From Iphinoe sp. HA4291-MV1 (GTDB lineage: Bacteria > Cyanobacteriota > Cyanobacteriia > Cyanobacteriales > Nostocaceae), in the NCBI GenBank assembly GCA_019359415.1, contig JAHHHH010000061.1, positions 1-45,559 on the forward strand: a stretch of 45,559 bases of DNA. Direction: 5' to 3'. The notes beneath the pieces were generated by a model. That model had not been told where the DNA came from and ran no database searches. It worked only from the letters and a program-made list of their open reading frames with translations. This document shows, piece by piece, positions 4,345 to 19,025 of the stretch. Position 1 is the stretch's first letter. The number at the start of each line of letters is the position of its first letter. The position numbers and the translations under genes were made by a program.

Positions 4345-4953
4345 ATGTCTCATGACCGAACAAAACCTGACACTCAAGCAATAGACAATGCAACAGGTAA
4401 ATTTTTAACACCGTTTCAGCGCAAAATGCTGCAAAAAAGTTTGCATAAGGATTTACCTGAGTCTTATCGCCAACGCATTGAAATTATGTTGCTGGCAGAT
4501 TCGGGGAAATCTCAAACCGAAATTTGTCAAACCTTGGGGTGTTGTCCAGCAACAGCACGGCATTGGATGCACATAGCACGTACTGGAATGGCGCACCAAT
4601 GGCAAGAGTTTCCAATTGGTCGTCCGAAGGCAGTTAATGAGAAATATTTGCAGCGTTTGAAAAAACTGGTTACCCATAGTCCCCGTGATTATGGATATTC
4701 GTTTCAGACTTGGACAGCCCATTGGTTGAGCAAGCACCTGGCAAAAGAGTTGGGGATTTCGGTCAGCGATCGCAACATTAACCTTTTGCTGAAAAAAATG
4801 GGGCTTTCGACTCGAGGAACCCAGACAGTAGAGAAAGTAACGTCCAAGGAAAGCACCCGCATCACAATTGACGACCTGCAATTTTCCTCTGAGCCTAATG
4901 TCCCATGTTCTCTCAACATCAACATCAGTAAAGATAGCGATTTAAAAGTATAA
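4345..4953 (+). CDS. helix-turn-helix protein (IS630-type HTH, probable RiPP-cluster regulator)
   Basis: This 202-residue protein has an N-terminal helix-turn-helix around residues 40-80 (RQRIEIMLLADSGKSQTEIC then a second helix ending in HWMHIA). A winged-helix-like part follows, around 95-155 (GRPKAVNEKYLQRLKKLVTH, WLSKHLAKELGISVSDRNI). This looks like the DNA-binding half of an IS630-type transposase with no DDE catalytic domain, so a domesticated regulator is the best reading. Its stop overlaps the K1 start by one base (TAATG at 4951), so the two genes are probably co-transcribed and translationally coupled. A close paralogue (roughly 60% by eye over the core) sits at 18441-19025 on the opposite strand at the far end of the cluster. 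The C-terminal 40 residues are low-complexity and not shared. Confidence 0.75.
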   Translation: MSHDRTKPDTQAIDNATGKFLTPFQRKMLQKSLHKDLPESYRQRIEIMLLADSGKSQTEICQTLGCCPATARHWMHIARTGMAHQWQEFPIGRPKAVNEKYLQRLKKLVTHSPRDYGYSFQTWTAHWLSKHLAKELGISVSDRNINLLLKKMGLSTRGTQTVEKVTSKESTRITIDDLQFSSEPNVPCSLNINISKDSDLKV

Positions 4954-6113
4954 TGACACTACTGTTAAGCTCCCAAAACGTTGGCAATTATTTATTTAGG
5001 CAGGGTCTTTGTACCACCAAACAACAAACCCAGCTCCAGATTGAATTAGTAGCTGCCAAGAATTTTAACTTGAGAGTGAGTTTACCAGATGGTTCTAAAC
5101 TCCTTGTCAAGCAAGAGCGGCACTATCAGGATGGGAAAACATTTGGTGAGTTTTTGGGAGAATGGCGAGTTCAAGAGTTCTTAAACCAATTTCCAGAACT
5201 GGATCACCTTCGCCCATTGCTGCCGGTGGTGCTCAATTTTGACCCGGAGAATTCGATTATTGTCTTCAGGTATCTGGATGACTATCAAGATTTGACTGAT
5301 TTCTACGCTCAGGAAAAGAACTTCCCAAGCCAAATCGCCTCTGCAATTGGCACTGTTTTAGCTACTATCCATCGTGCCACCTTCAATCGTCAGAACTATC
5401 GGGAATTCCTCCATCAAAATCAAAAGGACGCCCTCACTGGTCAAGTACTTAACTTGATTCGGGGGCTGGAACGAATTGGACCGGAAATTTTTGGAGGAGT
5501 GCCCGCAGATGCGCTAAAATTCTTTTCGCTCTATCAGCGCTACGACAGCTTGGGGCAAGCGATAAGAGAACTGGGCAGCGCTTTCGCTCCTTGTTGCCTG
5601 ACGCATCATGACCTGAAGTTGAACAATATTCTCCTGCACACCAATTGGCAGCAATCCGGTGACAGCATTGTGCGCTTCATTGACTGGGAGCGCTGTAATT
5701 GGGGAGACCCTGCTTTTGATTTGGGAACACTTATCGCCAGCTATCTGGAAATTTGGTTAAATAGCTTGGTCATCAGCAATGCACTCAGTATTGAAGAATC
5801 TCTACGCCTAGCGGCGACTCCCCTTGAGGTGCTTCAGCCTTCGATCGCTGTTCTGACTCTGGCTTATTTCGACACCTTCCCAGAAATCTTACAACAGCGC
5901 CCTGATTTCTTGCGACGTGTGGTGCAATTTGCCGGTCTTGTATTGATTCAACAGATTTTGGCGATGATTCAGTTTCAGAAAACTTTCGGCAATATCGCAA
6001 TAATCATGCTTCAGGTAGCTAAGACATTGTTATGCCGTCCAGAACAATCCATGTCAACGACTTTTGGCACTGCTGCTGCTGAATCTGGACGTTTGAGCTG
6101 TACTGCTGCTTAA
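4953..6113 (+). CDS. APH-like Ser/Thr kinase K1 of the RiPP cluster
   Basis: This 386-residue protein has an aminoglycoside-phosphotransferase/kinase fold. The N-lobe is present: strand with VSLPDGSKLLVKQE (candidate ATP Lys near residue 53) and a helix with GEWRVQEFL. The catalytic loop is THHDLKLNN, with D220 as catalytic base and N225 as metal ligand. The metal-binding IDWE has D244, and GDPAFDLGT follows. All key kinase residues are therefore intact. In thioamitide (TvaC) and class V lanthipeptide (LxmK) pathways such kinases phosphorylate precursor Ser/Thr before elimination by a HopA1-like lyase. The HopA1-like gene Y1 follows here, which supports that role by inference. A MITE at 6118-6288 separates K1 from Y1. 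K2 at 8684-9628 is a degenerate paralogue. Confidence 0.85.
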   Translation: MTLLLSSQNVGNYLFRQGLCTTKQQTQLQIELVAAKNFNLRVSLPDGSKLLVKQERHYQDGKTFGEFLGEWRVQEFLNQFPELDHLRPLLPVVLNFDPENSIIVFRYLDDYQDLTDFYAQEKNFPSQIASAIGTVLATIHRATFNRQNYREFLHQNQKDALTGQVLNLIRGLERIGPEIFGGVPADALKFFSLYQRYDSLGQAIRELGSAFAPCCLTHHDLKLNNILLHTNWQQSGDSIVRFIDWERCNWGDPAFDLGTLIASYLEIWLNSLVISNALSIEESLRLAATPLEVLQPSIAVLTLAYFDTFPEILQQRPDFLRRVVQFAGLVLIQQILAMIQFQKTFGNIAIIMLQVAKTLLCRPEQSMSTTFGTAAAESGRLSCTAA

Positions 6114-6117
6114 GATC

Positions 6118-6288
6118 AGGACTTACGCAACTGGCACACATATTTTCTGGTATAAGAGTCAACACTCAAGAGCGGAGCGCTGGATAGCTCCGCCTCCGGT
6201 CAAGGGTCAAAAATCAAGATTTTTGGACTTTTGACAAGTGAGATCTGGACAACCTCCACGAAAAAAATATGACACTTGCGTAAGTCCT
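6118..6288. mobile_element. MITE with 13-bp perfect terminal inverted repeats
   Basis: AGGACTTACGCAA at 6118-6130 is exactly inverted at 6276-6288, and partial complementarity continues inward (CTGGCACACATATTTTC against GTGTCATATTTTTTT). The 171-bp interior has no gene. The element sits between the K1 stop and the first ATG of Y1, so it interrupts what would otherwise be a tight operon junction and may have displaced the original ribosome binding site of Y1. Confidence 0.8.
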
Positions 6289-6292
6289 AAAG

Positions 6293-7429
6293 ATGTTTAG
6301 TCGCAACTCAACCATGACACAATTACTAGATTCTCTAATTCAACAGCCAGATGTAGCAACTAAGCGAGTGCTGGATGCTCTGCAAGAAATTGCGAGCAAG
6401 GTTCAGATCGAGTCTGACTTCAGCATTCGTCATCCAGATTACAAACCCTTTGAACTGCCAGCAGAGGCGATCGCTCGCTTTCAGCAAATCCCTGTAGAGA
6501 TTCAGCGCAAATATGTGAGCCTGCAACTGCGCTCTTTTCTCTACGGCATCTATTACAACGGTGGTATGCGAACTACCCACGCACGCCTAACAGATTCCAA
6601 TCCTCTACCACTGGACTTAGAGAACAATACTTTTTTGGGAGTAGACTTGGGTTTTTACAATCGCTTGCACGAAAGTAATAGCGGCACTGGCTACTTTGAC
6701 TCTTGTTGGTATGTTCTCTGGGAAGAAAGTGATGGCAGCGTAGCCGTGACTAAGAATGGTCTAAGGTTGCATATTGAGCGCGAGCGGCATCTGCAATCAG
6801 CACAAGCTACTGTTGTGGTGGGTGAAGAGGTGGCTATCCGCATGCCGAAAAATCTGCTCCAAAGCGGTTTTTATGTGGCGGTGGGCAATGCAGGACCAAT
6901 TCGTCTCGATTTAGAGGGTCATCAGCAGACTGTGCGAATCTACTTCAATTTGACTTCAGAAGGTGCAGTTGCGGTTATGAGTGCTCTCACGCAGCATCTG
7001 AACGAAATGGCTATTCCTTTTAACTTCAAGGTTTTGTACAACCCAGCTGATTACAAGCGCTACGACTCAGGAGTTTTGTACTTTGACAAGAGCGACTATG
7101 AAGTGATCGCCTCTGTGATTGAGACAGTTTACCAATTGCGATCGCATTTTCAGCCAGAAGTTCCCCTATTCACCAAGCTGCTTGCACCAGGGTTGGGGTT
7201 AGCAGAAGAACCAGACCACAAGTTTACTGACCGAGAAAGCTTTGGGATGAATCGGTGTCAGATTGTCGCTAATGGATTGCTGGAAGCTTGCGACAAAGGG
7301 GATGACTCACCAGAGAGGAGGTTGACCTCTATTTTTGAGCAATTCTCCCGACTGGGAATTGACTGGCAGCGTGCCTACCTCAATGCCAACTCTGAAGACA
7401 TCTATGCACCAGTCAAGCTATGTGATTGA
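6293..7429 (+). CDS. HopA1-family lyase-like protein Y1
   Basis: This 378-residue protein resembles the T3SS-effector HopA1 family, whose bacterial RiPP members (TvaD in thioamitides, LxmY in class V lanthipeptides) are thought to eliminate phosphate from phospho-Ser/Thr to give dehydroalanine or dehydrobutyrine. Features shared with Y2 (9646-10710) include LR-F-Y-IYYNG (about residues 76-87), SPEGAVAV/SEGAVAV, RYDSGVL, VPLFTK-LAPGLGLAE, R-CQ-ANGL and the end motif NSEDIY. The annotated ATG lies 5 bases beyond the MITE and has no good Shine-Dalgarno. The ATG at 6314 (MTQLLDSL) aligns better with the Y2 start and is an equally good candidate. Family assignment is by motif memory and gene pairing; the catalytic residues were not verified. 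Confidence 0.8.
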   Translation: MFSRNSTMTQLLDSLIQQPDVATKRVLDALQEIASKVQIESDFSIRHPDYKPFELPAEAIARFQQIPVEIQRKYVSLQLRSFLYGIYYNGGMRTTHARLTDSNPLPLDLENNTFLGVDLGFYNRLHESNSGTGYFDSCWYVLWEESDGSVAVTKNGLRLHIERERHLQSAQATVVVGEEVAIRMPKNLLQSGFYVAVGNAGPIRLDLEGHQQTVRIYFNLTSEGAVAVMSALTQHLNEMAIPFNFKVLYNPADYKRYDSGVLYFDKSDYEVIASVIETVYQLRSHFQPEVPLFTKLLAPGLGLAEEPDHKFTDRESFGMNRCQIVANGLLEACDKGDDSPERRLTSIFEQFSRLGIDWQRAYLNANSEDIYAPVKLCD

Positions 7430-7458
7430 TACTTCCAAATCTCTAAAATAGGTCGTTT

Positions 7459-7756: not shown

Positions 7757-7785
7757 TTGAAGTTTATAAGGTAAATTCTTAGTAT
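7757..7785 (+). promoter_or_regulatory. candidate sigma-70 promoter for the precursor genes
   Basis: TTGAAG (7757-7762) and TAGTAT (7780-7785) are separated by 17 bases, about 70 bases before the first precursor ATG. It lies in the AT-rich gap 7493-7852, downstream of the terminator, where a promoter is required. Only four of six bases match the -10 consensus, so this is tentative. Confidence 0.3.
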
Positions 7786-7852
7786 TTAATTAAGCAATCA
7801 AACAGAAGTGTTTGAGCCAAAACTAAAAAAAATAATCTCAAGGAGAACACAA

Positions 7853-8044
7853 ATGGCTGATATTACTGTTAAGGATTTAAAACCCGCAGGAACTGAATTG
7901 TTTTTCAATGATCCGGAAAGTTTCATTACTGAAATCGGTTCTGAGGATATTGCTAATATTCAAGGTGGTAGCATCGTTTGTGTAGGTGGCAGCGTAGCTT
8001 GCAGTGTTATTATCATTGCCAACTCTTGCAGCCCTAGAACCTAA
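7853..8044 (+). CDS. RiPP precursor peptide A1, double-glycine leader
   Basis: This 63-residue precursor starts at ATG 7853, preceded by AAGGAG (7840-7845) at a good distance; the longer frame from 7808 has no supporting start. Residues 1-39 form the leader (MADITVKDLKPAGTELFF at the start, SEDIANIQGG at the end). The GG at 38-39 is the expected cleavage site for the C39 peptidase encoded at 15201-18275. The 24-residue core begins SIVCVGGSVACS, has a hydrophobic VIII stretch, and ends NSCSPRT. The core holds three Cys and five Ser/Thr, with Ser three residues before Cys twice (S1/C4 and S8/C11), a spacing suited to lanthionine rings. A1 differs from A2 and A3 at the C-terminal end (ANSCSPRT against GNTCSRT). 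The function of the mature peptide is unknown. Confidence 0.9.
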   Translation: MADITVKDLKPAGTELFFNDPESFITEIGSEDIANIQGGSIVCVGGSVACSVIIIANSCSPRT

Positions 8045-8111
8045 AGATTTCGCAATCAAACAGAAGCGTTTGTCCAAATACTAAAAAACATTGATTTCAA
8101 GGAGAACACAA

Positions 8112-8300
8112 ATGGCTGATATTACTGTTAAGGATTTAAAACCCGCAGGGACTGAATTGTTTTTCAATGATCCGGAAAGTTTCATAACTGAAATCGGTTC
8201 TGAGGATATTGCTAATATCCAAGGTGGTAGCGTCGTTTGTGTAGGTGGCAGCGTAGCTTGCAGTGTGATCATCATTGGCAACACTTGCAGCCGAACCTAA
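8112..8300 (+). CDS. RiPP precursor peptide A2, double-glycine leader
   Basis: This 62-residue peptide starts at ATG 8112 after CAAGGAGAACACAA; an in-frame extension to 8091 is not needed. The 39-residue leader is identical to that of A1 and A3 and ends at IQGG. The 23-residue core begins SVVCVGGSVACS and ends GNTCSRT. The second core residue is Val where A1 and A3 have Ile. The S-x-x-C pairs are kept. It should be cut after GG by the exporter's C39 domain and modified by the kinase/lyase enzymes of the cluster (inference). Confidence 0.9.
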   Translation: MADITVKDLKPAGTELFFNDPESFITEIGSEDIANIQGGSVVCVGGSVACSVIIIGNTCSRT

Positions 8301-8367
8301 AAATTGAGCAATCAAACAGAAGCGTTTGTCTAAATACTAAAAAACATTGATTTCAAGGAGAACTCAA

Positions 8368-8556
8368 ATGGCTGATATTACTGTTAAGGATTTAAAACCC
8401 GCAGGGACTGAATTGTTTTTCAACGATCCGGAAAGTTTCATTACTGAAATCGGTTCTGAGGATATTGCTAATATTCAAGGTGGTAGCATCGTTTGTGCAG
8501 GTGGCAGCGTAGCTTGCAGTGTGATCATTATTGGCAACACTTGCAGCCGAACCTAA
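8368..8556 (+). CDS. RiPP precursor peptide A3, double-glycine leader
   Basis: This 62-residue peptide starts at ATG 8368, preceded by CAAGGAGAACTCAA. The leader is identical to A1 and A2. The 23-residue core begins SIVCAGGSVACS, with Ala at core position 5 where A1 and A2 have Val, and ends GNTCSRT. It is the last gene before an intercistronic hairpin at 8608-8651 and the K2 gene. Confidence 0.9.
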   Translation: MADITVKDLKPAGTELFFNDPESFITEIGSEDIANIQGGSIVCAGGSVACSVIIIGNTCSRT

Positions 8557-8607
8557 AGATTGTATCTAATGCTCACTTGCTTGTTAGTCGCAATCGAGCT
8601 TTTATCT

Positions 8608-8683: not shown

Positions 8684-9628
8684 ATGAAAACCATACTAAA
8701 CTATAAAAATATCTATCAGTACTTGCTTAATAGTTGTATTTGCCCAGAAGAAATAAAAACTATTTCACTAGAATATATAAAGCTAGATAATTTTTACAGG
8801 CAAGAGAAAGCTTTTCCCTCTGCCATTGCTGCCCAATTGGGGACTACTTTAGCAAGGCTGCATCGTGATAGCCTGAATCATCAGGAATTATACGAATTCA
8901 TTGCTAAAACAGATCCTGGTAAATTAGGCTATCAAAATCCTAATTATTCTGCTCAACTCCTAAACAGAATTGAGCCAGAAGATTTCAGTCATTTTACTCA
9001 CGAAAGCATTATTTTTTTCAAAAATTATCATCGCCATGAAAGTTTTACATCAGCAGTAGCAGAGCTTACTCTCAATCAGCACCACTGCTGCCTGACACAT
9101 AATACCCTCAAGTTAAATAACATTTTAATATCCAGGGATTGGGAAAAACTAATTTCTCAAACAGAACAGTCAAATCAAGGCATTATTAAGTTGATTAACT
9201 GGGAAAACTGGAGTTGGGGCGATCCAGCGTTTGATCTGGGAACAGTGATTTCTAGCTATTTACTAATATGGCTTAACAGTTTAATTGTGCATCCTGTTAT
9301 TGAACTGCAAAAATCTCTGCAAATGGCCACAATACCTTTAGAGGTACTTCAACCCTCAATTGTAGCTCTTACCCAGGCGTATCTCAGCAGTTTTCCCATT
9401 CTAGATTACTATCCTAACTTTATGGCGCGAGTTATTCAGTTTGTTGGTCTTGGCTTGCTGTATGAAATTGTAGAAATAAGTCAGTGGCAAAAAAACTTTA
9501 ATAATAGGGGTCTTTGCATACTTCAAGTTGCTAAGAGCTTATTGTGTCGTCCAGAACAATCATTTAACGCTGTTTTTGGGATGGCAGAATCAGAAATAAC
9601 TAATTTAGAGCCATCCTCTATTAAATAG
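8684..9628 (+). CDS. degenerate APH-like kinase K2 (probable pseudokinase)
   Basis: This 314-residue paralogue of K1 starts at ATG 8684 after AGAGG. The first 20 residues resemble the K1 N-terminus, but about 75 residues that form the N-lobe in K1, including the candidate ATP Lys and the Glu helix, are absent. The K1 catalytic loop THHDLKLNN reads THNTLKLNN here, so the catalytic Asp is T141. The K1 metal motif IDWE reads INWE, with Asp replaced by N172. GDPAFDLGT and the helical C-lobe are well conserved, and the frame is open throughout. Selection therefore seems to keep the fold but not kinase chemistry, which suggests a substrate-binding or scaffolding role with Y2. It could also be a recently broken gene, but the absence of stops over 314 codons argues against that. 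Confidence 0.85.
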   Translation: MKTILNYKNIYQYLLNSCICPEEIKTISLEYIKLDNFYRQEKAFPSAIAAQLGTTLARLHRDSLNHQELYEFIAKTDPGKLGYQNPNYSAQLLNRIEPEDFSHFTHESIIFFKNYHRHESFTSAVAELTLNQHHCCLTHNTLKLNNILISRDWEKLISQTEQSNQGIIKLINWENWSWGDPAFDLGTVISSYLLIWLNSLIVHPVIELQKSLQMATIPLEVLQPSIVALTQAYLSSFPILDYYPNFMARVIQFVGLGLLYEIVEISQWQKNFNNRGLCILQVAKSLLCRPEQSFNAVFGMAESEITNLEPSSIK

Positions 9629-9645: not shown

Positions 9646-10710
9646 ATGCAACTGCTACAGTCCCTTCAAGACATTGCTACTCAGGTTCAAATTAAATCTG
9701 ACTTTTGTGTCAGTCATCCTAATTACAAAGTAGAGCATCCAGCCGAGGTAGTAGCCCAGTTGCAACAATTACCTCAAGAAACTCAGGCTAAGATCCTGAG
9801 TTCAATGCTGCGAGACTTTATATATGACATTTACTACAACGGTTCACTTGTGGGAGAAGCAAGTGAAGCAGTGATGGCTGATTACTCTGTCTTAGGGGAT
9901 AAAACTGTTGCAGGAATAGATTGGGAATTTTGCGAACAACTAGATAAAAGTAATAAAGGGAAAGGTTTCTTTGAGTCGGGATATCGCGTGTTAAAACAAG
10001 AACCAGATGGTAGTCTCTTAGTAGAAAAGCAAGGCATGGGTACGAGGATACATATCCAGCCAAACCGCCATCTCCAATTAGTAGATCAAGCAGCAGTTGT
10101 AGGGGACTTGGTTGTAGTCAACGTGCCCCATAATTTATTTCAACTTCGATGCTATCTGGCAGTTGGAGATGTAGTTGGTAATAGCAAAAAAGAATACTCT
10201 AAAGTCATAATATTCTTCAACTTCAGCCCTGAAGGTGCAGTTGCCGTCATGGAAAGTTTAACGTTGCAACTGAACAAATTTAAAGTACCCTTCGGCTTCT
10301 ATGTTTTAGACAACCCTTTGCATTTTGGACGCTATGATTCAGGAATTCTCCGAGTTCCTGTAGATAACTACGAATTAGTTCGGACAGTTCTACAGACTGT
10401 TTACGCAGAAAACAAATCGCACTTTCAGCCGCAGGTTCCTTTGTTTACTAAGGTACTTGCACCGGGGCTGGCTTTAGCAGAAATGCCTAAATCTAGAGAA
10501 GATTTTGGTAGCATCCGTTGCCAACTTATTGCCAATGGCTTAATGGAAGCGAGGCTCAAGGGTGATGAATCAAAAGAAGCTAGGATGACACATATACTCC
10601 AACAGTTCGAGCTTCAAGGAATAGACTTAAAACATCCCTACCTCGATCCTAACTCTGAAGATATTTACACACCATTCGACGAGTCAAATATAAATTTGCT
10701 AACCATATGA
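9646..10710 (+). CDS. HopA1-family lyase-like protein Y2
   Basis: This 354-residue paralogue of Y1 has a good ribosome binding site (AGGAGTAAC, with ATG at 9646), only 17 bases after K2. It keeps the blocks shared with Y1: LRDFIYDIYYNG (about residues 62-73), FSPEGAVAVMESL, FGRYDSGIL, FQPQVPLFTKVLAPGLALAE, IRCQLIANGLMEA and NSEDIY. Predicted role is phosphate elimination from Ser/Thr of the precursor, by analogy to TvaD/LxmY. Its C-terminal ATGA overlaps the start of the E1-like gene at 10707. Whether Y1 or Y2 acts on the three precursors, or each on different sites, cannot be told from sequence. Confidence 0.8.
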   Translation: MQLLQSLQDIATQVQIKSDFCVSHPNYKVEHPAEVVAQLQQLPQETQAKILSSMLRDFIYDIYYNGSLVGEASEAVMADYSVLGDKTVAGIDWEFCEQLDKSNKGKGFFESGYRVLKQEPDGSLLVEKQGMGTRIHIQPNRHLQLVDQAAVVGDLVVVNVPHNLFQLRCYLAVGDVVGNSKKEYSKVIIFFNFSPEGAVAVMESLTLQLNKFKVPFGFYVLDNPLHFGRYDSGILRVPVDNYELVRTVLQTVYAENKSHFQPQVPLFTKVLAPGLALAEMPKSREDFGSIRCQLIANGLMEARLKGDESKEARMTHILQQFELQGIDLKHPYLDPNSEDIYTPFDESNINLLTI

Positions 10711-11726
10711 ATATATTGAATAAATTCCAAACAGGAATTGTTTTAAAACATAGCACATCTTTATCATTCATTTCTGAGGAACAAAAAACCATACTGAGCA
10801 ATGGTCTGCGACATTTCATACTATCGAATATCCCTGAACAGGTAGTGCAAGCTTTGAAGCAAATGGTCGCAGGAACACAACTTGACAAATTAGCCACTTT
10901 ACTGCCGGGGGATAGGCTGGAGAAACTTATTTCACTTCTGGATTCAAAGGGTGTGGTACGACCTTTGTATGAAAATGACTTTAAGGAGACGCGGTTTGAG
11001 AAGCAGGTGGAGTTTTTCTCAGATTTCGTTGAAGACCCCAATACTCCACAAGAGAAGCTTTTAAAACAGTTAGTATGTATCATCGGTTGCGGTGGAACCG
11101 GAAATATCGCAGTTCAACATTTAGTAGCTGCTGGCGTTAAAAACTTTATATTGATTGACGATGATCTTGTGAACATAACAAACTTTAATCGCCAGTTTTG
11201 TTTTAGCCAAGCTGACCTCAATACGCCGAAGGTTGAAGCACTGCGTAACTACATTTTAGCGAGAGACCCTGAGATAAAAATTCATACTCGTAAACAAAAA
11301 ATTAATTCTCTGGAAAGTTTATACCAAGCTTTAGAGGGTTTAAAAAAGCCGGATTTTATTGTGTGTTGTGCTGATACCCCACCGATTACCATTCAGACAT
11401 TGATCGTACAGTATTGCCTACAGGAAAATGTAGCGTGTACGTTCTCAGGAGTGAGAGTTTATGATGGCTTAGTAGGTCCACTATTGACTGAGAAGAGCCA
11501 TATGGAAAAATTTATTCAGCACAATCAACAGATAGAAAAGCAGCAATATGAAAATTCTCCAACAGTCATATCGTCGTCGATTTCATACCTCAATACAATG
11601 ATCGCAACCTTAATGATAGCGGATGCGATCAATCTGCTAGCTGGTATTAAAAAGCCGCTCTCTCTGAACACGACCTTACAGTACAATGCTGACCAGGCGA
11701 AGATGGTCACGGTTTCTGAGTGGTAG
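10707..11726 (+). CDS. E1/ThiF-family adenylating enzyme, MccB-like, in the RiPP cluster
   Basis: This 339-residue protein begins with about 110 residues resembling the leader-binding/winged-helix region found in RiPP E1-like proteins (GVVRPLYENDFKETRFEKQV). A ThiF/E1 Rossmann domain follows: the nucleotide loop CIIGCGGTGN (G127-x-GGTG) and LIDDDLVNITNFNRQ around residues 148-163, the typical Asp/Asn/Arg/Gln adenylation motif. VCCADTPP matches the position of the family's SADHP-like loop. The two CxxC zinc pairs usual in ThiF, MoeB and MccB are not seen. By family it should adenylate a carboxylate, as MccB does on the MccA C-terminus, or use a degenerate fold for precursor binding. The start overlaps the Y2 stop (ATGA). 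The frame stays open for 19 codons past the TAG at 11724-11726 (see findings). Confidence 0.8.
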   Translation: MNILNKFQTGIVLKHSTSLSFISEEQKTILSNGLRHFILSNIPEQVVQALKQMVAGTQLDKLATLLPGDRLEKLISLLDSKGVVRPLYENDFKETRFEKQVEFFSDFVEDPNTPQEKLLKQLVCIIGCGGTGNIAVQHLVAAGVKNFILIDDDLVNITNFNRQFCFSQADLNTPKVEALRNYILARDPEIKIHTRKQKINSLESLYQALEGLKKPDFIVCCADTPPITIQTLIVQYCLQENVACTFSGVRVYDGLVGPLLTEKSHMEKFIQHNQQIEKQQYENSPTVISSSISYLNTMIATLMIADAINLLAGIKKPLSLNTTLQYNADQAKMVTVSEW

Positions 11727-11789: not shown

Positions 11790-12719
11790 ATGAGTGAAAA
11801 ACTTAGTCTTGGCGTTCTCGATTTCTGCGATTCAATCACTACGACAATTAGACTTGCTCCCCGAATTGAAGCTTTTGGATATTCCCGCTATTGGTTAGCA
11901 GAGCATCATGGTGATGGTCTTGCCAGTCCGGAACTGTTAATTCCTATTCTTGCGGGACTAACTAAGAGGATTCGCGTGGGAATGGCTGGAGTTCTTCTCT
12001 CCTTCTATAGTCCCTTAAAGGTAGCCGATAATTTTAAGTTGCTCGAATTATTATTTCCCCAGCGCATTGACTTAGGGATTGGTCGTGGTGGGGCAGATCC
12101 ATTGACAACTCAAGCTCTTCTTGACGGCAGAACTAGGGAACTGGATCTCGACCTTTACAAAGAGAAAATAGAGTACCTGATAGACTACTTGCACGGAAAT
12201 TCACAGGTGCGGACGACACCTGCTATCTCGACCTACCCGGAAGTTTGGGTTCTCGGTACCGGGTTCAATAGCATGCACGTAGCTGCACACAAAGGTCTTG
12301 CTTACAGCCATTCGCTCTTTCATCGAGGATGTTTAGATGACCCCAGTATCCTCAAACAATATCGAGAAACTTTCCAGCCCCACGGTGAAAAAGTCCTAAC
12401 CCCCCGATGTAACATAGCCGTGGCAGGCATTTGCGCGGACACTGAAGCTCGGGCATACCAATTACAACAACAGCACGCCAACAATTTTGTTATGCTCAAC
12501 ATAGTAGGCACTGCCAATCACTGTAAAGAGAAGTTGCTGGCGTTGCAAGAGCGTTATGACGTTAACGAAATCATCTTCTTTGATGTCTGCCGGGAATTTA
12601 ATGACCGCTTACGTTCTTACGAATTGCTTGCTGCTGAGCTTAGATTAACAAATGTGTCTGCCCAAACCAAACAGTTGGCAGTACATGCTTCTAACAACTC
12701 CTATGGACGTGCCACTTAA
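11790..12719 (+). CDS. luciferase-like (LLM-class) flavin-dependent oxidoreductase
   Basis: This 309-residue TIM-barrel flavoenzyme belongs to the bacterial luciferase-like family. Recognisable features are the N-terminal LGVLDFCDS, the YWLAEHHGDGLASPELL segment (about residues 34-50), the IRVGMAGVLLSFYSPLKVAD strand-helix unit, and RIDLGIGRGGADPLT, a typical MsnO8-like pattern. The cofactor could be FMN or F420. It is the last gene of the plus-strand biosynthetic series, 63 bases after the E1-like gene. In lexapeptide-type clusters an LLM-family F420H2-dependent reductase (LxmJ, LanJ_C class) reduces dehydroalanine to D-Ala, so a similar role on dehydrated core residues is a reasonable inference. 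Its stop overlaps the convergent PPIase stop in a CTTAAG palindrome (12715-12720). Confidence 0.82.
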   Translation: MSEKLSLGVLDFCDSITTTIRLAPRIEAFGYSRYWLAEHHGDGLASPELLIPILAGLTKRIRVGMAGVLLSFYSPLKVADNFKLLELLFPQRIDLGIGRGGADPLTTQALLDGRTRELDLDLYKEKIEYLIDYLHGNSQVRTTPAISTYPEVWVLGTGFNSMHVAAHKGLAYSHSLFHRGCLDDPSILKQYRETFQPHGEKVLTPRCNIAVAGICADTEARAYQLQQQHANNFVMLNIVGTANHCKEKLLALQERYDVNEIIFFDVCREFNDRLRSYELLAAELRLTNVSAQTKQLAVHASNNSYGRAT

Positions 12720-13465
12720 GTGCGATCGCAATTAAGCTGCGTCACGATTTCTAATTCCGCGATTTGTTGCTTTAACCAAGCTGCAAACAAATCTCCCAAA
12801 ATCTTAACACGCAGCTGCTCGTTTAATTTGGCTTCAATAATTTCCTCAACTGAAATTAGATGCACTCCTTTTGGCGTAATTATCGGCTTAAGGATCTGTG
12901 GCGGCGTAGCAGCAAAGACCAGTGCTGCAATTTCCGGTCGGAAATCTCTGCGGCGTTGTATGCCGCGATATCCCCCGGCGCGGCGGATTTCTGGTTCTTC
13001 AATGTATTGGTGGGCGATTTCTTGAAAACTAATTTCGCCTTCTTGCAATGCACAAAACAGTTCCATAACCAAGTCTTCATCATCGAAAATGACTTCATAG
13101 GTTACCGCTGCGGCATAATCGAGTTCGTGTTGATAAAAGAACGGTTCAACTTGCTGTCCAAATAAATGTGTCGCCAATTTGTTAGATATCTGGTTTGTGT
13201 ATGCCAATGCTTCAAACTCATCTATGGAAAGATGATGTTTTTCCAGCCATGCCCAGGTATCTTCAGCTTTGAGGAGTTTATTGGCTAACCGCAGATTATT
13301 TGCTGCCTGCTGAAGTTCTTCTAGCTCGACTTTTATGCCTGCTTCCTTGGCAGTATCGGCAATAATTTGGCGAGTGGCGATCGCTTCCACTAAACCAGGA
13401 ACTTGACAGGAAATTTTGATTTGATAAAAGATGTCTTCCTTGGATACATTTAGAAATTTTGACAT
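12716..13465 (-). CDS. parvulin-like peptidylprolyl isomerase (SurA/PpiC type) of the export operon
   Basis: This 249-residue protein has a helical N-terminal part (about residues 1-125) and a PpiC-like rotamase region (about 125-225) with GEISFQEIAHQYIEEPEIRR, GGYRGIQRRRDFRPEIAALV and KPIITPKGVHLISVEE. No signal peptide is seen, so it probably acts in the cytoplasm. It is the last gene of the minus-strand series HTH - ABC exporter - HlyD - PPIase, 77 bases after HlyD. PPIase/HlyD/peptidase-ABC trios of this kind are common next to GG-leader peptide genes in cyanobacteria, where the PPIase may keep or fold the precursor for export (inference). Confidence 0.8.
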   Translation of the reverse strand: MSKFLNVSKEDIFYQIKISCQVPGLVEAIATRQIIADTAKEAGIKVELEELQQAANNLRLANKLLKAEDTWAWLEKHHLSIDEFEALAYTNQISNKLATHLFGQQVEPFFYQHELDYAAAVTYEVIFDDEDLVMELFCALQEGEISFQEIAHQYIEEPEIRRAGGYRGIQRRRDFRPEIAALVFAATPPQILKPIITPKGVHLISVEEIIEAKLNEQLRVKILGDLFAAWLKQQIAELEIVTQLNCDRT

Positions 13466-13516
13466 AGTGCAATTTCTCTCACAATCACTGGATTTTAAAT
13501 TTTGGATTTTGGATTT

Positions 13517-13546
13517 TGTAGAGACGCAAGGATATCGCGTTTCTAC
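13517..13546 (-). terminator. palindromic repeat spanning the HlyD stop codon
   Basis: TGTAGAGACGC (13517-13527) and GCGTTTCTACA (13536-13546) are complementary with one wobble. The HlyD stop (13543-13545) lies in one arm. The arm resembles the GTAGAGACGC repeat scattered in Nostoc-type genomes, and GTAGAGACGCAAGG occurs again at 15108-15121. It may lower transcription from hlyD into the PPIase gene. Confidence 0.5.
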
Positions 13547-15072
13547 AGTTCTAAACCGCCTTTTTGCAACTTCTTAAACGGATCTAAGATCAAGTCGATC
13601 ACACGATGCTGCCGGATAATCACCTCAGCAGTCGCTGTCTGACCTGGTGTTATCAGAATACGTTTGTTGCCATTTTGGATATAAGGCTGCTGTAGGGCAA
13701 TATCCAACTCAAAAGTTTCTATCTTGCCAGAGTTAGTTTCTTTAACTTTCGAGTCTGGTGAAATCCGACTGATGCGCCCAAGCATTATTCCATAATCTTG
13801 GAAGGGATAGGCATCAAACTTGATTTTGACGCTCGCTCCCACCTTCAAGAAACCACTTTGTTGACTAGGCATCTCAGCTCTTAGTACAAAAGGAGATTCC
13901 TTGGGGGAAATTTGAGCAATCATCTGACCGGGTTGTAGCACAGACCCAGGCTTGTCGATGGGCAATGCAAAAATTATGCCATCAATAGGCGATCGCACCA
14001 CTCGTTGCTGTAACTGGAAATTTAAGGATGCGATCTGGCTTTTGATTTGAGCAATCTCTGATTGCAGCGCTGCAATTTGTGATTGCACGTTTTTGAACTG
14101 TTCGGTCGTTTTAAGCACAGCCAGTTCGCCTGTATGAATCAGGCTATCTTTGTTACGTTGCTGCTCTTGCAAGCGGAGTTGCGCTTGCTGAATATCCGCC
14201 TCTGCTTGATGAATAACCCTCTGATAACTGTTTTGTTGCTCTTGCAAGCCCGACTGAGCCTGATCTATCTCCGACTTTGCTTGTACCAGGTTTTGGTAGT
14301 TTTCTTTGACCGACTGTTGCACTTCTAAAAACCGATCTTGTGCAATTGCACCGTCTTGAAAAACTTTTTTATATCGTGGTATTTTTTCCTTGGCACCCTG
14401 GAAACGAACTTGTGCCAACTCGTGGGCTGCCTTGCTTGAATCAACCGCTTGCCGCGTCTGATTGACTTTAGCAAGTTTTTCCTCTTTTTGTAAGTTGTAG
14501 GCACTCTTGAGAGTATCAAGATTCTGTTGCGCCTGCTGCACCTGCGCACTTTTTTCTGATTGTTGCGCTTGGTTTTGTTGCTGCTGGGTACGGATAGTGA
14601 GCTGCAATTGATTTTTGAGCAGTTCGAGTTGCGCCTGCTGATTTAATTGCCCAGAAAGCTTTGCCTGCGCTTGCTGCAAATCCGTTCGCAGTAAATTAGA
14701 CTCCAGCTCGAGCAGAGTTTGCCCTGCTTTAACAGTTTCGCCTTCTCTTACTCTCACACTGATGACGCTTCCTGGCGCTGGAGAGTCTATTCTTTGCGTT
14801 GCGCCTAATGGTTCAATACGTCCTCTGGCGCTGCCTGTTTCATCCACCTGAGAGAGCATCGCCCAAGGTAAGCTGATCGCTGTAAAGCTTACCAGCAAAT
14901 ACAGCATTGAACGCGTCCAAAGCCGAGGCAAAGCATCCAGCAGTTCCTCGGTGCCGTAAAACCAATCGCTGGTTTGAGTTTGTGCTGGCGATCGCTGTTT
15001 AACCTCACTAGAATCTTCAACCGAGTCAGGCGCATTGACCAGGGATGATGAATTACGAGATGGGTTTGGCAT
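13543..15072 (-). CDS. HlyD-family membrane fusion protein of the peptide exporter
   Basis: This 509-residue periplasmic adaptor links the ABC exporter at 15201-18275 to the outer membrane. It has a short cytoplasmic N-terminus, one transmembrane helix near residues 52-75 (MLYLLVSFTAISLPWAML), and a biotinyl-lipoyl half-motif (RIDSPAPGSVISVRVREGET and VKAGQTLLELES). A long Gln-rich coiled-coil hairpin spans roughly residues 130-350, followed by the second lipoyl half (VVRSPIDGIIFALP) and beta-barrel segments (GASVKIKFDAYPFQDYG). The length is typical of large cyanobacterial HlyD proteins. It sits between exporter and PPIase on the same strand, so the three should form one operon. Confidence 0.9.
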   Translation of the reverse strand: MPNPSRNSSSLVNAPDSVEDSSEVKQRSPAQTQTSDWFYGTEELLDALPRLWTRSMLYLLVSFTAISLPWAMLSQVDETGSARGRIEPLGATQRIDSPAPGSVISVRVREGETVKAGQTLLELESNLLRTDLQQAQAKLSGQLNQQAQLELLKNQLQLTIRTQQQQNQAQQSEKSAQVQQAQQNLDTLKSAYNLQKEEKLAKVNQTRQAVDSSKAAHELAQVRFQGAKEKIPRYKKVFQDGAIAQDRFLEVQQSVKENYQNLVQAKSEIDQAQSGLQEQQNSYQRVIHQAEADIQQAQLRLQEQQRNKDSLIHTGELAVLKTTEQFKNVQSQIAALQSEIAQIKSQIASLNFQLQQRVVRSPIDGIIFALPIDKPGSVLQPGQMIAQISPKESPFVLRAEMPSQQSGFLKVGASVKIKFDAYPFQDYGIMLGRISRISPDSKVKETNSGKIETFELDIALQQPYIQNGNKRILITPGQTATAEVIIRQHRVIDLILDPFKKLQKGGLEL

Positions 15073-15200
15073 AGTTTTTACCTAAGGAGGGTTAGGAGGA
15101 GCAAAGTAGAGACGCAAGGAACCGGAGCGTCTGTACAGAGTTAGGAATTAGAAGTGAAAAATTTAAAAACTCATAGTTCATGGCTCATAACTCACAACTT

Positions 15201-18200
15201 TTAGTAAGCTTGAGCCAACTGTTGCTGATTGAGGTAGTAGTAATGACCTTTTTTGGTAATTAATTGGTTGTGAGTACCGCTTTCGATTAATACGCCGCGA
15301 TCTAAAACCAGGATCAAGTCAGCATTACGCACGGTGGAAAGACGATGGGCGATTATTAGGGTTGTCCGCCCTTTGAGAATGGTGTTGAGGTTGTTTTGAA
15401 TGATACGTTCGGATTCAGCGTCGAGGTGACTAGTGGCTTCATCGAAAATTAATAAGCGGGGATTCCCAAGCAAAGCACGGGCGATCGCTAACCTCTGGCG
15501 TTGTCCCCCAGATAACATCCCGCCACCTTCACCGATTTGGGTTTCATAACCCATTGGCAATTGCTTAATAAATTCGTCTGCTCCAGCTAGACGTGCTGCC
15601 TCAATAATCTCCTCGAGAGTAGCTTGTGAATGAGCGATGCTTAAGTTTTCCCGAATCGTACCGCCAAACAAAAAGGTATCTTGATCGACAACACCAATTT
15701 GAGAACGGAGCGAGTTCAGGGAAATGCCTGCCACATCTTGACCATCGATCAACACATTGCCACCTGTCGGCGGATATAAACCCAAAATCAACTTGGAGAG
15801 GGTTGTTTTCCCAGAACCGCTACGTCCCACCACCGCCACAGTTTGCTCTGGCAGTACCTCAAAACTGAGATTTTCCAGCACGTTAATATCGCTTTCTGGG
15901 TGATAGCGGAAAGTGACATTATCAAAGCGAATTCTCCCTTGAAGTCTGGGTAAGTACTGGCGGGGTTGATATTGTAAGTCTTCTTCTGGCTCTGCCTCTA
16001 GGACATCATTAATCCGCTCACTAGAAACAATCACTTCCTGCAATTGATTCCACAGCACTGCCAGCCGCTGGAAAGGATGAATGATGTTGCCCAACAACAT
16101 ATTGAAAGCAACTAATTGTCCAATGGTGAGTTGGTTTTGAATCACAAGCCATGCCCCAAACCACAGCAATGCTGTAGTGGCAACCGATTCGATAGAGGAA
16201 CTGAAAATTTGCAGGCGGTTAGTAATCACCTGCCCACCAAAGCTTCTTTTAATCAAACGATGGAGCTTTTCCTCCCAATGCCAGCGCACTGTCTGCTCAA
16301 CTGCCATTGAGCGGACAGAGCGAATCCCTGTGAGGGCTTCAATCAGATAACTGTTCTCGTTGGCTGCGGCATTAAAAATCTCTTTGGCGATGCGACGCAA
16401 GAAAGGCGTTGCAAAGAGCGCCAGTAGAAAAAATGGCGGCACAATCAGCAGCACCAGCAATGCCATCTGCCAGCTGTACCAAAACATCAATCCCACATAG
16501 ATAAACACTGTCAGCAAATCGAGAATGATTGACAGTGCTTCTCCGGTGAGGAAGCGCTGAATTTTCTGATTTTCTTGAACGCGAGAAACAATATCGCCAA
16601 CGAAACGTGACTCGAAGAACGCCAGTGGCAGTCGGAAGGTATGTTTAATAAAACCCACCATCAGCGCTACTCCGATGCGGTTCGCAGTGTGATCCAGCAT
16701 ATATTGCCGCAGTCCGTTCGTGGCGACGCGGAACAAACCAAAAATTAGCAACCCTAACCCGACGGCGTTTAAAGAGAGGATGCTGCCTTGGACAATCACT
16801 CGATCCAACAGCAGTTGGGTGAATAGTGGCGTTACCAGTCCAAACACCTGAATAAACACACTAGCCATGAACACTTCTAGCAGCACTAGCCAGTGGGGTT
16901 TGATTAACTCAAAAAACTGCCAGAATGGTTGAGTTGCTTCCTGGCTTTCTTTGAGTAGGGCTGTGGGTTGCAATAACAATGCATAGCCAGTCCAACCTGC
17001 ATTGAATTCTCTGTTTGTGAGGGTGAGTTGACCGATCGCTGGGTCGCCAACAATTACCTGCTTTTTGGTAATTTCATAGACGACGATGTAATGTTTGCCT
17101 TCCCAGTGAGCGATCGCAGGTAAGGGTTGTTGTGCCAATTTATCAAGGCTGGCTTTTACTGGACGAGTAGAAAAACCGATGGTTTCTGCCGCAGCGGCTA
17201 GACTTTTTAGTGATGCCCCGTTCCGACTCGTGTTAGTTAAATCCCGCAGGCGATTTACCGACAAGTGCTTGCCCCAATAGCGACTTATCATCACAAGAGT
17301 TGCTGCACCACAGTCAGAGGAGCTTTGTTGTGCAAAGAACGGATAGTGCTTGGCGATCCTTCCCCACCAATGCCCCACCCTCACCTTGGGATTGGGAAAG
17401 TAGGCTCTGAGCTTCTTTTGCTTTTGTTTTGGCTCTGAAGCTGGCTGCGGAAATAGAATAACATTACCCCCATTCTTCAATCTTTCTGGGAAAGACTTGC
17501 TATGAGGCGTCTGTTGGTCATCCGAGGCAACAACTTTTGAGTCAGAGTCAACCAATGCCAACTCAGACCAGTGCTGGAGTGCTGTTTGCCAATCAGCATT
17601 GCTTAGACTGTACAGAATTGTTGGTTGTATTGCCTGCCAAGTACCTTGTTTTCCAACGGCGCAGATATTCGCAGGTGTCAAGGACTGACCGGATGAATGT
17701 TGCAGTTCTCCCCGGCGCAGCAGCCACAGTTTGCAATCTTTGGATAATGTTGCACTCAGGGTGCCAGTATCCAGATTGTGCTGCGAGAAATAAGATAAGG
17801 CTCGGAGCATTTCCTCAACTGAAGTGTTGCGAGGAAGTTGATTCTCGCGGCAACATAACAGTAGCAAGTCCCAAAGTTCTGCTTTGCTGTATAGGCGATC
17901 GCTCAAACTGGCATATTTGCTCATCAAAGCTTGCAACGTTTCATCCTTGAGATAGCAAAGCTTTAAGTTTGTAGAAGCTCTAGCGGTGTAAGGTTGAAAG
18001 ACATCTTCTGGAAACAGAGTCATTTCACCGAATGATGCCCCGCTTGTTAGAGTGGTGATTAAGTTATTAGAGCTATCCATTAATCTGACTTTACCCGCAA
18101 GGATTATGTAGATGCCGCCCTTTGCGGTTTCTGCTTGCCAAAACTGTTTTGCTACTGATGGCTCGACGATTTCTACTGCTTTGACGCAGTTTGCTAGTTC

Positions 18201-18275
18201 GTTTGCTGAAAGCGAATCACCCAAGCTAGCGGTAATTTTTTCACCAAGCTGTTCCTGGGAAAATACTGATGGCAT
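15201..18275 (-). CDS. C39-peptidase ABC exporter (PCAT) with N-terminal cyclic-nucleotide-binding domain
   Basis: This 1024-residue protein cuts GG leaders and exports the peptide. Residues about 30-130 resemble a cNMP-binding domain (YIILAGKVRLMDS, GASFGEMTLFP), with a second weaker copy to about 240. The C39 peptidase is at 310-440: FFAQQSSSDCGAA with catalytic Cys322, the His in KHYIVVYE, and Asp in GDPAIG. The transmembrane part spans about 465-750. The ATPase spans about 785-1015, with Walker A GRSGSGKTT, signature LSGGQRQRLAIARALL, Walker B LLIFDEAT and switch His in IAHRLST. All catalytic residues are intact. The start ATG follows GAGGTAAG. The GG leaders of the three precursors at 7853-8556 are the obvious substrates. 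The sensor-like N-terminus suggests control of export by a small ligand (inference). Confidence 0.93.
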   Translation of the reverse strand: MPSVFSQEQLGEKITASLGDSLSANELANCVKAVEIVEPSVAKQFWQAETAKGGIYIILAGKVRLMDSSNNLITTLTSGASFGEMTLFPEDVFQPYTARASTNLKLCYLKDETLQALMSKYASLSDRLYSKAELWDLLLLCCRENQLPRNTSVEEMLRALSYFSQHNLDTGTLSATLSKDCKLWLLRRGELQHSSGQSLTPANICAVGKQGTWQAIQPTILYSLSNADWQTALQHWSELALVDSDSKVVASDDQQTPHSKSFPERLKNGGNVILFPQPASEPKQKQKKLRAYFPNPKVRVGHWWGRIAKHYPFFAQQSSSDCGAATLVMISRYWGKHLSVNRLRDLTNTSRNGASLKSLAAAAETIGFSTRPVKASLDKLAQQPLPAIAHWEGKHYIVVYEITKKQVIVGDPAIGQLTLTNREFNAGWTGYALLLQPTALLKESQEATQPFWQFFELIKPHWLVLLEVFMASVFIQVFGLVTPLFTQLLLDRVIVQGSILSLNAVGLGLLIFGLFRVATNGLRQYMLDHTANRIGVALMVGFIKHTFRLPLAFFESRFVGDIVSRVQENQKIQRFLTGEALSIILDLLTVFIYVGLMFWYSWQMALLVLLIVPPFFLLALFATPFLRRIAKEIFNAAANENSYLIEALTGIRSVRSMAVEQTVRWHWEEKLHRLIKRSFGGQVITNRLQIFSSSIESVATTALLWFGAWLVIQNQLTIGQLVAFNMLLGNIIHPFQRLAVLWNQLQEVIVSSERINDVLEAEPEEDLQYQPRQYLPRLQGRIRFDNVTFRYHPESDINVLENLSFEVLPEQTVAVVGRSGSGKTTLSKLILGLYPPTGGNVLIDGQDVAGISLNSLRSQIGVVDQDTFLFGGTIRENLSIAHSQATLEEIIEAARLAGADEFIKQLPMGYETQIGEGGGMLSGGQRQRLAIARALLGNPRLLIFDEATSHLDAESERIIQNNLNTILKGRTTLIIAHRLSTVRNADLILVLDRGVLIESGTHNQLITKKGHYYYLNQQQLAQAY

Positions 18276-18330
18276 TTACTTACCTCTAACAGAGAATTAG
18301 TTCTTGGTCTAAATCACATTGAATGACCAA

Positions 18331-18443
18331 TAGACTTCTTGCAGAAGTCGGGAATAGGGAATAGGGAACAGGGAACAGGGAACAGGGAACAGGGAACAAA
18401 GGAGAACAGAACCTCATAAAATCTCACTTTTGCAAGAGGTCTA
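18331..18443. mobile_element. MITE of the TAGAC(C/T)TCTTGCA family, copy 1
   Basis: The ends TAGACTTCTTGCAGAAGT and (inverted) TAGACCTCTTGCAAAAGT match at 16 of 18 positions, and TA lies at both ends, as in IS630/Tc1-type elements. It sits between the exporter gene and the HTH gene. The HTH stop codon (18441-18443) falls in its outer end, so insertion has set the C-terminus of that protein. A second copy is at 22130-22244. Confidence 0.8.
18350..18398. repeat. heptanucleotide repeat GGGAA(T/C)A, seven copies
   Basis: Two GGGAATA units are followed by five GGGAACA units with no gaps. This matches the short tandemly repeated repetitive (STRR) heptamers known from heterocystous cyanobacteria. 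The array fills the loop of the MITE at 18331-18443. Confidence 0.9.
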
Positions 18444-19025
18444 ATGGAAACTAGCCTCATTGGATTGCAAGTCTGTGATCGTAATGTGAGTATTCTTGGT
18501 ATGGCTTGTTGCCCCTTTAGCAAAAGAGCGTATTTGTTTTGTGGAAAGCCCCATTTGTTTCAGCAACCGATTGATGTGGCGATCGCTAATTTCAATGCCA
18601 AATTCAGTCGCTAGATGTTTGCTCAACCATTGGGCTGTCCAGCACCCAAATGCATAGCCATACTCACTAGGGCTATGGCTTACTAATTCCTTCAAGCGTT
18701 CGATATATTGGTCGTTTACAGTTTTAGGTCTTCCTATCGGTCGCTCCTGCCATGTATGCGCCAGACCTGCTTGTGCTACAGCACGCCAGTAGCGTACCAT
18801 CTCCTGAGAACAACCTAACATTTGACAGATTTGGGTTTGAGATTTCCCTTGCTCTGCCAGCAACATGATTTCCAATCTGCGCCGATATTCTGGTTGCAAA
18901 TCTGCTTGCAAATTCTTCAGCAGCAGATTCCGCTGAAAAGGCGTTAAAAACTTACTGTCAGCATACTTACTATCAGTAAAGTCGAGGTGGTCAAAAACAA
19001 GTTTTTGACTGTAATGCTGTGTCAT
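18441..19025 (-). CDS. helix-turn-helix protein, paralogue of the 4345-4953 gene
   Basis: This 194-residue protein shares the blocks FLTPFQR, YRRRLEIMLLAEQGKSQTQI, the recognition helix region, GRPKTVNDQY and WLSKHLATEFGIEISDRHIN with the HTH gene at the other end of the cluster. It looks like an IS630-type HTH without a catalytic domain. It is the first gene of the minus-strand export series, 165 bases upstream of the exporter. A role as regulator of one or both transcription units is inferred from its position only. The last residues derive from the adjoining MITE end. Confidence 0.75.
   Translation of the reverse strand: MTQHYSQKLVFDHLDFTDSKYADSKFLTPFQRNLLLKNLQADLQPEYRRRLEIMLLAEQGKSQTQICQMLGCSQEMVRYWRAVAQAGLAHTWQERPIGRPKTVNDQYIERLKELVSHSPSEYGYAFGCWTAQWLSKHLATEFGIEISDRHINRLLKQMGLSTKQIRSFAKGATSHTKNTHITITDLQSNEASFH

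Follow-up and report, generated by a model that had tools for sequence, protein, structure and literature searches.

What use could a peptide-maturing locus have for a second kinase/lyase pair from which residues for phosphorylation and elimination are missing? This question is raised by a locus for a ribosomally synthesized and post-translationally modified peptide (RiPP) at positions 4345-19025 of contig JAHHHH010000061.1, from the 7.36 Mb draft genome of Iphinoe sp. HA4291-MV1; the whole stretch of DNA analysed, 45,559 nucleotides long, is called the window below. A sequence-only reading had described here a RiPP locus combining kinase/HopA1 dehydration, an E1-like enzyme, a luciferase-like monooxygenase (LLM) and C39-type export. 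Pfam and NCBIfam searches bore this out, with an E1 of the MccB-like kind, and the observation of this composite locus is sound and confirmed. Three precursors with double-glycine (GG) leaders do lie among two kinase/HopA1 pairs, in three tandem repeats, and the proteins encoded from 6293 and 9646, whose HopA1 membership was to be checked, both belong to this family. The claim of two kinase/lyase pairs stood for the first pair (K1Y1), which keeps its catalytic residues, whereas the second (K2Y2) appears to be a conserved pseudokinase and pseudolyase and not an intact dehydratase. The features concerned are the following.

4953-6113, plus strand: K1, APH-fold, LanK-type Ser/Thr kinase with intact catalytic residues (Pfam APH, E-value 1.1e-13; HHD and DWE motifs)
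6293-7429, plus strand: Y1, HopA1/LanY-type phospho-Ser/Thr lyase keeping R/K/R/Y (Pfam HopA1, 9.1e-60; aligned with the solved LxmY, 9dk1_B)
7778-8548, plus strand: three tandem 256-nt direct repeats containing the precursors
7853-8044, plus strand: precursor 1, core SIVCVGGSVACSVIIIANSCSPRT after GG
8112-8300, plus strand: precursor 2, core SVVCVGGSVACSVIIIGNTCSRT after the GG leader
8368-8556, plus strand: precursor 3, core SIVCAGGSVACSVIIIGNTCSRT after the GG leader
8684-9628, plus strand: K2, predicted pseudokinase, with HxD changed to HNT, DWE changed to NWE and the ATP-binding N-lobe deleted
9646-10710, plus strand: Y2, predicted pseudolyase, with R187 changed to I, K219 to Y and Y236 to R in CaoY numbering (Pfam HopA1, 1.3e-46)

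Kinases (K) and lyases (Y) of related loci were assigned to type 1 or 2 according to which window copy gave the higher phmmer score; trees of 73 kinase and 74 lyase rows, from which rows of 300 amino acids (aa) or fewer were excluded, served as a check. HopA1 is present in 40 of the 148 genomes sampled from the order; the survey covered the 68 HopA1 rows of these genomes, kinase hits chosen from the top of the list and the E1 loci, and is not a random sample. K2Y2-type loci are rare, since only four, in three genomes, were found among the 68 HopA1 rows. Near copies aside, six loci carry two pairs: the window, C99 of the same genome, G042, G020, G355 and G347. C99, G020 and G355 are close kin; Y2 of G355 is interrupted by the end of a contig of only 4.8 kb, and K1 is absent from the cut contig of G042. 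Together with two Brasilonema copies (CT11 and B. angustatum), these loci provided eight K2 sequences. The catalytic Asp was found in 66/66 K1-type kinases and in 0/8 K2, where Asn or Thr stands instead. The metal Asp is lost in four of the eight K2 and the loop Asn in four, while the ATP-binding Lys is kept in five. The ATP-binding lobe is missing from K2 of the window, CT11 and B. angustatum; window K2 keeps the C-lobe and matches Pfam APH weakly (2e-4, under the cut-off). K1 has the HHD and DWE motifs and the Lys of a class V LanK kinase, and scored 95 bits against the NCBIfam LxmK model (cut-off 315). Lyase positions follow the CaoY naming (R187, K219, R229 and Y236; PMC9486802) and were mapped by spacing, in agreement with the alignment to the solved LxmY. 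Window Y1 has all four of these residues, as expected of a class V LanY/HopA1 lyase; in window Y2 the Lys is replaced by Tyr and the Tyr by Arg. Over all loci, R187 occurs in 53/69 Y1-type lyases versus 0/7 Y2, the K219-equivalent Lys in 57/69 versus 1/7, R229 in 63/69 versus 5/7 and Y236 in 50/69 versus 0/7, this last position being occupied by R, K or Q in all seven Y2. Two intact dehydratases serving different Ser/Thr sites are ruled out by the catalytic residues missing from K2 and Y2. As judged from these alignments, K2Y2 is a putative pseudokinase-pseudolyase pair, its active sites lost yet the pair conserved.

K2 forms one clade (100/99) and so does Y2 (100/99), while the partner K1 and Y1 of K2Y2 loci are not clades (3 and 4 changes). 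The idea that these partners are scattered over the whole tree proved wrong: all fall within a single clade, of 21 of the 73 kinase rows and 22 of the 74 lyase rows. On these trees, K2Y2 would either have joined the K1Y1 lineage long ago, with frequent loss, or have moved within that lineage. The ratio of non-synonymous to synonymous substitution rates (dN/dS) of K2 was 0.24-0.29 among C99, G020 and G355 and 0.41-0.47 against G347 (six pairs); that of Y2 was 0.25-0.26 (three pairs), and the Brasilonema copies gave 0.29-0.32 for K2 and 0.23-0.35 for Y2. For K1 we obtained 0.17-0.18 among C99, G020 and G355 and 0.11-0.14 against G347, and for Y1 0.24-0.32 and 0.07-0.10, the latter with saturated dS and one pair not computable. 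K2Y2 is co-inherited on these trees and, with dN/dS below 0.5, under selection, K2 being constrained less than K1. Of the 92 K1-conserved columns, 40 are found in every K2, 6, including the catalytic Asp, in none, and the other 46 in some only; the 61 columns conserved in Y1 divide into 32 kept, 3 lost and 26 mixed in Y2. The best of five K2 models had a predicted local distance difference test (pLDDT) score of 79, the others 53-74, and its top fold match was LxmK of the LxmKY complex (template-modelling score 0.59). Six other loci (L042, L043, L045, L050, L055 and L058) have intact kinases closely related to the K2 clade, paired with lyases in which Gln or Glu replaces the Lys; neither a peptidase-containing ATP-binding cassette (ABC) transporter (PCAT) nor a recognised precursor lies near them.

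The peptides encoded beside K2Y2 are rich in Cys. In the window each core carries three Cys and six Ser/Thr behind its leader, a class V-type composition, and contains neither Asp nor Glu. The calculated masses of the three unmodified cores are 2335.17, 2224.10 and 2210.09 Da, from which each dehydration would remove 18.011 Da. The repeats that hold the precursors are 82% and 96% identical to the reference copy, and the likely starts, each preceded by AAGGAG, are at 7853, 8112 and 8368 and not at the GTG or TTG codons further upstream. For the comparison of cores, L030 and L031 were excluded as near copies of the window and loci with no recognised precursor were left out. At a threshold picked after the cores had been seen, cores with at least two Cys were found at 6/6 K2Y2 loci versus 12/39 other K/Y loci (Fisher 0.0023); within the K1Y1 lineage that holds K2Y2 the proportions were 6/6 versus 3/11 (Fisher 0.009), and LanM lies beside two of those three. 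In the precursors of C99, G020 and G355, a terminal S-x-x-x-C motif is followed by one residue at most. Around K1-Y1-precursor-K2-Y2 of C99 and G020, the other enzymes of the window were not found within 20 kb, except for a 40-bit PCAT match in C99. At the G042 K2Y2 locus (L011, 2230-4359), additional precursors are accompanied by two genes of TENA/PQQC- or haem-oxygenase-like type.

The sequence-only reading had recognised no LxmX-like cyclase, and we agree, as neither a LanX nor a LanD gene was recognised. LanM was not found at the eight K2Y2 loci (stretches of 4.8-45.6 kb), and four K1Y1 loci have one. LanM-type genes adjoin K1Y1 pairs at L015/L135 (G084:C8), L060, where the gene stands between Y and K, L062 and L023; at L135 it lies near precursors of the same leader type with Cys-containing cores. 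A LanC or LanM cyclase elsewhere in the host genome was considered and none was found, PF05147 (LANC_like), the class Vb feature, being absent from a draft that is 95% complete. The class Va decarboxylase family of LanD, PF02441, is not in the cluster and was found only on contigs C53 and C90 of the genome; with no LanD in the cluster and cores terminating in CSRT or CSPRT, an S-(2-aminovinyl)cysteine end is ruled out. No thioamitide YcaO or TfuA was found among the 10 cluster proteins scanned, the genome as a whole not having been searched for them.

The gene that follows Y2, overlapping it by 4 bases, encodes an E1-like protein.

10707-11726, plus strand: MccB-like E1/ThiF adenylyltransferase (Pfam ThiF, 1.8e-41; PDB profile search; Foldseek)

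Its ThiF adenylation domain is nearest to MccB, which was the best match in the PDB profile search (1.5e-33, profile positions 65-323) and filled the top 24 Foldseek rows, obtained with a weak query model (pLDDT 59); within this weak overall model the N-terminal 90 residues, the region where MccB-type enzymes would have an RRE-like leader- or peptide-binding domain, form strands followed by three helices (pLDDT about 80). Close relatives occur in 2/388 order-sample genomes, 5/8 genus genomes and 2/386 phylum-sample genomes (one of them distant), the window's own included each time, and a scan of genome contigs found eight loci, six with at least 45% identity. Microcin C synthesis is ruled out for this E1, the precursors having no C-terminal Asn: they end in RT in the window, CT11 and B. 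angustatum, and in RW, RC, RC and RY at four further loci, with a penultimate Arg in 11/11 Brasilonema/Scytonema precursor open frames, one of them partly masked. With ThiF-like RiPP enzymes, activation of a carboxylate is followed by the attack of a nucleophile (PMC12150305), and the C-terminal carboxylate is the likely target here because the window cores lack Asp and Glu. In another cyanobacterium, G657 (L134, 8689-10712), a distant MccB-like E1 (102 bits) has an S66 LD-carboxypeptidase as its neighbour, an arrangement that resembles microcin C loci and differs from that of the window.

The four further loci (Scytonema tolypothrichoides, CT11, B. angustatum and G390) combine a 71-73% identical E1 with one GG precursor, PCAT, HlyD and a peptidyl-prolyl isomerase (PPIase); in 20-21 kb no K/Y pair was found at any of them. 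Their precursor leaders are the nearest to those of the window (24, 21, 21 and 21 of 39 positions; next at most 20, among the best 25 rows). The sequence-only reading had held that precursors occurring elsewhere without these enzymes would tell against it; the leader type and E1 do so occur in these four related genomes, but the Cys-rich core is not there. Such loci favour the view that E1 acts alone on its own precursor family and stands beside K1Y1 and K2Y2 because two unrelated pathways, served by one exporter, were fused recently, a serious contender that we nevertheless consider rather less probable than its opposite. In Chamaesiphon, a 45% identical E1 also adjoins a HopA1 gene and a Gly-rich GG precursor, this one ending in TAD without penultimate Arg; moreover, E1 and K/Y probably share one substrate in the window, because it holds only Cys-type precursors. 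The Chamaesiphon locus (L010, 8874-11984; L017) consists of HopA1, a Gly/His-rich GG precursor and E1, no kinase having been found on the contig, and G073 has a Gly-rich precursor similar to the Chamaesiphon one. E1 appears from these comparisons to be a separate MccB-like module, used with and without a dehydratase.

We propose, at an even chance, a composite class V-like RiPP pathway in which K2Y2 serves as a leader-holding, ring-forming unit. K1Y1 would phosphorylate core Ser/Thr and then eliminate, giving dehydroalanine (Dha) or dehydrobutyrine (Dhb). K2Y2, of the same scaffold and with the C-lobe kept, would hold the leader and help core Cys to add to Dha/Dhb, as a cyclase or a cyclisation chaperone. 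E1 would adenylate the C-terminal carboxylate next to the conserved Arg, so that the peptide would end in a nucleotide, thiolactone, ester or amide; one residue may be reduced or oxidised by the LLM flavoenzyme; and the C39 domain would cleave after GG, the product leaving through the HlyD channel. The K2Y2 step is the least certain, and ring formation, proposed by analogy, is tentative, somewhat below an even chance. It is favoured because the cores are Cys-rich, no LANC_like domain was found in the host, an AlphaFold model places the leader on the C-lobe of LxmK (PMC12141560), RosX, a kinase fold without kinase residues, closes S-(2-aminovinyl)-3-methylcysteine rings, and RosKY alone accelerates lanthionine formation (PMC12291118). 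More doubtful still is the bolder proposal that K2Y2 is a new lanthionine cyclase, a dead dehydratase heterodimer re-used for ring closure, of separate origin from LanX and with an MccB-like partner in Brasilonema for closing or capping the C-terminus. The interpretation first given to this locus is partly supported, thioether bridging being putative.

Several points weigh against ring formation by a conserved dead pair. The rate effect of RosKY alone (PMC12291118) means that a cyclase may be unnecessary, and LANC_like proteins are encoded elsewhere in 4/7 K2Y2 genomes, with none in 3/7. The association with Cys is weaker when cores with any Cys are counted (6/6 K2Y2 loci versus 20/39 other K/Y loci, Fisher 0.032); besides the late choice of the two-Cys threshold, the six loci are not independent, C99, G020 and G355 being kin, and counts from a non-random sample are loose. 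Degenerate as Y2 is, some Y1 at other loci lack Arg or Lys too, and the Y2 of L014 retains its Lys. Constraint on K2 is weaker than on K1 (dN/dS 0.24-0.47 versus 0.11-0.18), and K2Y2 may be an old companion of one K1Y1 lineage, lost several times, and not a mobile module. TvaE, of the LanX type, came only at rank 41 in the K2 fold search, K2 being structurally nearer LxmK; judged by its model, K2 is therefore probably not a LanX, homology to LanX is unsupported, and a ring-closing role would be by analogy. The E1 model is too poor for active-site geometry. Finally, both the product and the function of K2Y2 are predictions from sequence.

The main rival to a ring-forming K2Y2 is pure leader docking or assembly: as a non-catalytic docking or regulatory unit, K2Y2 would pair with K1Y1, bind the leader and set the order or number of dehydrations, closing no ring. 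That scaffold columns persist although the catalytic Asp has gone agrees with this, as does the leader position predicted on LxmK, and RosK dimerises and binds RosY at a 2:1 ratio (PMC12291118), so that K1/K2 hetero-dimers are conceivable. By itself, however, docking leaves the link of K2Y2 to Cys-rich cores and the duplicated lyase partner unexplained, and we hold it to be unlikely as the whole answer. It is more improbable that K2Y2 keeps another catalytic chemistry, such as a different phosphate transfer or an elimination via non-canonical residues; the ATP-binding Lys (5/8) and metal Asp (4/8) retained by full-length K2 of other loci and the R, K or Q at the Y236 position of every Y2 would suit it, but window K2 has neither the N-lobe nor the Asp of DWE. 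A decaying duplicate, its function lost and on its way out, is very unlikely: the N-lobe loss in the window, the relaxed constraint on K2, the lack of K2Y2 at most loci of its K1Y1 lineage and a HopA1 fragment with a stop 12 kb from K1Y1 of G084:C8, the sister locus of G042, point that way, but dN/dS over all pairs, Brasilonema included, is 0.24-0.47 (K2) and 0.23-0.35 (Y2), frames are open in five genus codes, and K2 and Y2 are inherited together as clades.

If K2Y2 is such a ring-forming unit, it bears on ring closure in class V lanthipeptides without LanC or LanX, for which it is a conserved candidate beside a working pair and a Cys peptide, partly in compact loci. It would also add a case of an enzyme pair that lost its chemistry while its scaffold was kept for another task, next to an MccB-like RiPP module seen in use both with and without a dehydratase.

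The remaining features of the locus are regulatory, redox and export genes.

4345-4953, plus strand: helix-turn-helix (HTH) protein (Pfam HTH_32/HTH_23) with a C-terminal leader-like box, ITIDDL
11790-12719, plus strand: LLM-class flavoenzyme of the MsnO8 family (Pfam Bac_luciferase, 3.7e-23; NCBIfam TIGR03558, above its cut-off)
12716-13465, minus strand: PPIC-type peptidyl-prolyl isomerase (Pfam)
13543-15072, minus strand: HlyD-type membrane fusion protein (Pfam)
15201-18275, minus strand: PCAT, with N-terminal cyclic nucleotide monophosphate (cNMP) domain, C39 peptidase and ABC transporter (Pfam)
18441-19025, minus strand: second HTH protein, homologue of the one at 4345, with leader-like box ITITDL, upstream of PCAT

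The convergent PCAT-HlyD-PPIase operon noticed earlier was confirmed by Pfam on the minus strand (12716-18275), its C39 peptidase being fused to the ABC transporter as in PCAT proteins; the biosynthetic genes are on the plus strand and the two HTH genes (4345 and 18441) flank the locus. The gene set recurs complete and in the same order in Brasilonema sp. CT11. In B. angustatum it is divided between two contigs, one starting within the precursors and the other having HTH, K1 and part of Y1. As it recurs in these two further Brasilonema genomes, the assembly of genes is not due to chance. Among 71 K/Y loci, PCAT is present in 39 and HlyD in 30, some of the stretches being short.

A 64% identical flavoenzyme of the MsnO8 family also adjoins K2Y2 in G042 (L011). 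The F420-dependent LanJ of Streptomyces reduces Dha (PMC12291118), and by analogy a reductive role for the window flavoenzyme is plausible. An aldo/keto reductase of about 338 aa stands at Y1 in 19/71 K/Y loci (L014, L020, L023, L024, L029, L047, L051 and others), G347 being the only K2Y2 locus to have it; at L051 it is fused to Y1 (709 aa). This protein is a candidate dehydroamino-acid reductase.

HTH proteins beside PCAT genes (4345-4953 and 18441-19025 in the window; L097-L132 and others) end in a box, [ILVFM]x[ILVFM]x[DN][LI], that resembles the starts of leaders. The set comprised 60 distinct proteins, many of them close kin, 49 of which lie within 1.5 kb of PCAT. The box was found in all 53 with a recognisable tail, against 4% for shuffled tails, and in 63/116 precursor leaders, again 4% when shuffled. 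Seven proteins were set aside: three with a similar box by eye, two short frames and two distant homologues with none by eye and no PCAT in 3.4 kb. The box may mimic a leader and so allow the regulator to sense whether the exporter or an enzyme is occupied.

How does this locus compare with known systems? Kinase/HopA1 pairs are a RiPP signature, and peptide Family 1A, with 570 peptides in 183 biosynthetic gene clusters, has a GG leader and is confined to cyanobacteria (PMC8153245). CaoK phosphorylates and CaoY eliminates, the cyanobacterial precursors being classed as type B LanA (PMC9486802). In Abiotrophia, a ThiF protein is reported next to a lanthipeptide dehydratase (PMC12250964). In the open PMC papers searched we found no named product of this locus type and no pseudokinase in it, nor the dead K2Y2 pair, E1 with and without a K/Y pair, or the leader-like box on HTH proteins. 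Like CaoKY, LxmKY and RosKY, the window combines APH kinases with HopA1 lyases in a leader-dependent system; its K1 and Y1 keep the key residues and the K2 model matches LxmK best. It differs from them in having neither LanD nor a recognised LanX, and in its dead second K/Y pair, cyanobacterial GG leader and C39 exporter. With LanX/RosX and TvaE, which act in ring closure (PMC12291118), K2 shares a kinase fold without the kinase catalytic residues, but on the tree it falls within the LanK-type kinases of cyanobacteria, and it is paired with a lyase. The window E1 aligns with the MccB profile, and precursor, E1 and exporter form a small cluster as for IndF; in contrast to MccB, PaaA, GrcB and IndF systems, the precursors lack a C-terminal Asn, have a penultimate Arg in Brasilonema/Scytonema and are combined with K/Y pairs. 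The closest likeness is to the Family 1A/type-B loci, which also have a GG leader, a kinase/HopA1 pair and several precursors; a degenerate second pair and an E1 are not mentioned in their main-text descriptions (PMC8153245, PMC9486802). The gene set had at first been called unfamiliar, but this cyanobacterial kinase/HopA1/GG-leader class is already published in the same two papers: the class of locus is known, and what is new lies in its dead second pair and in the module with the MccB-like E1.

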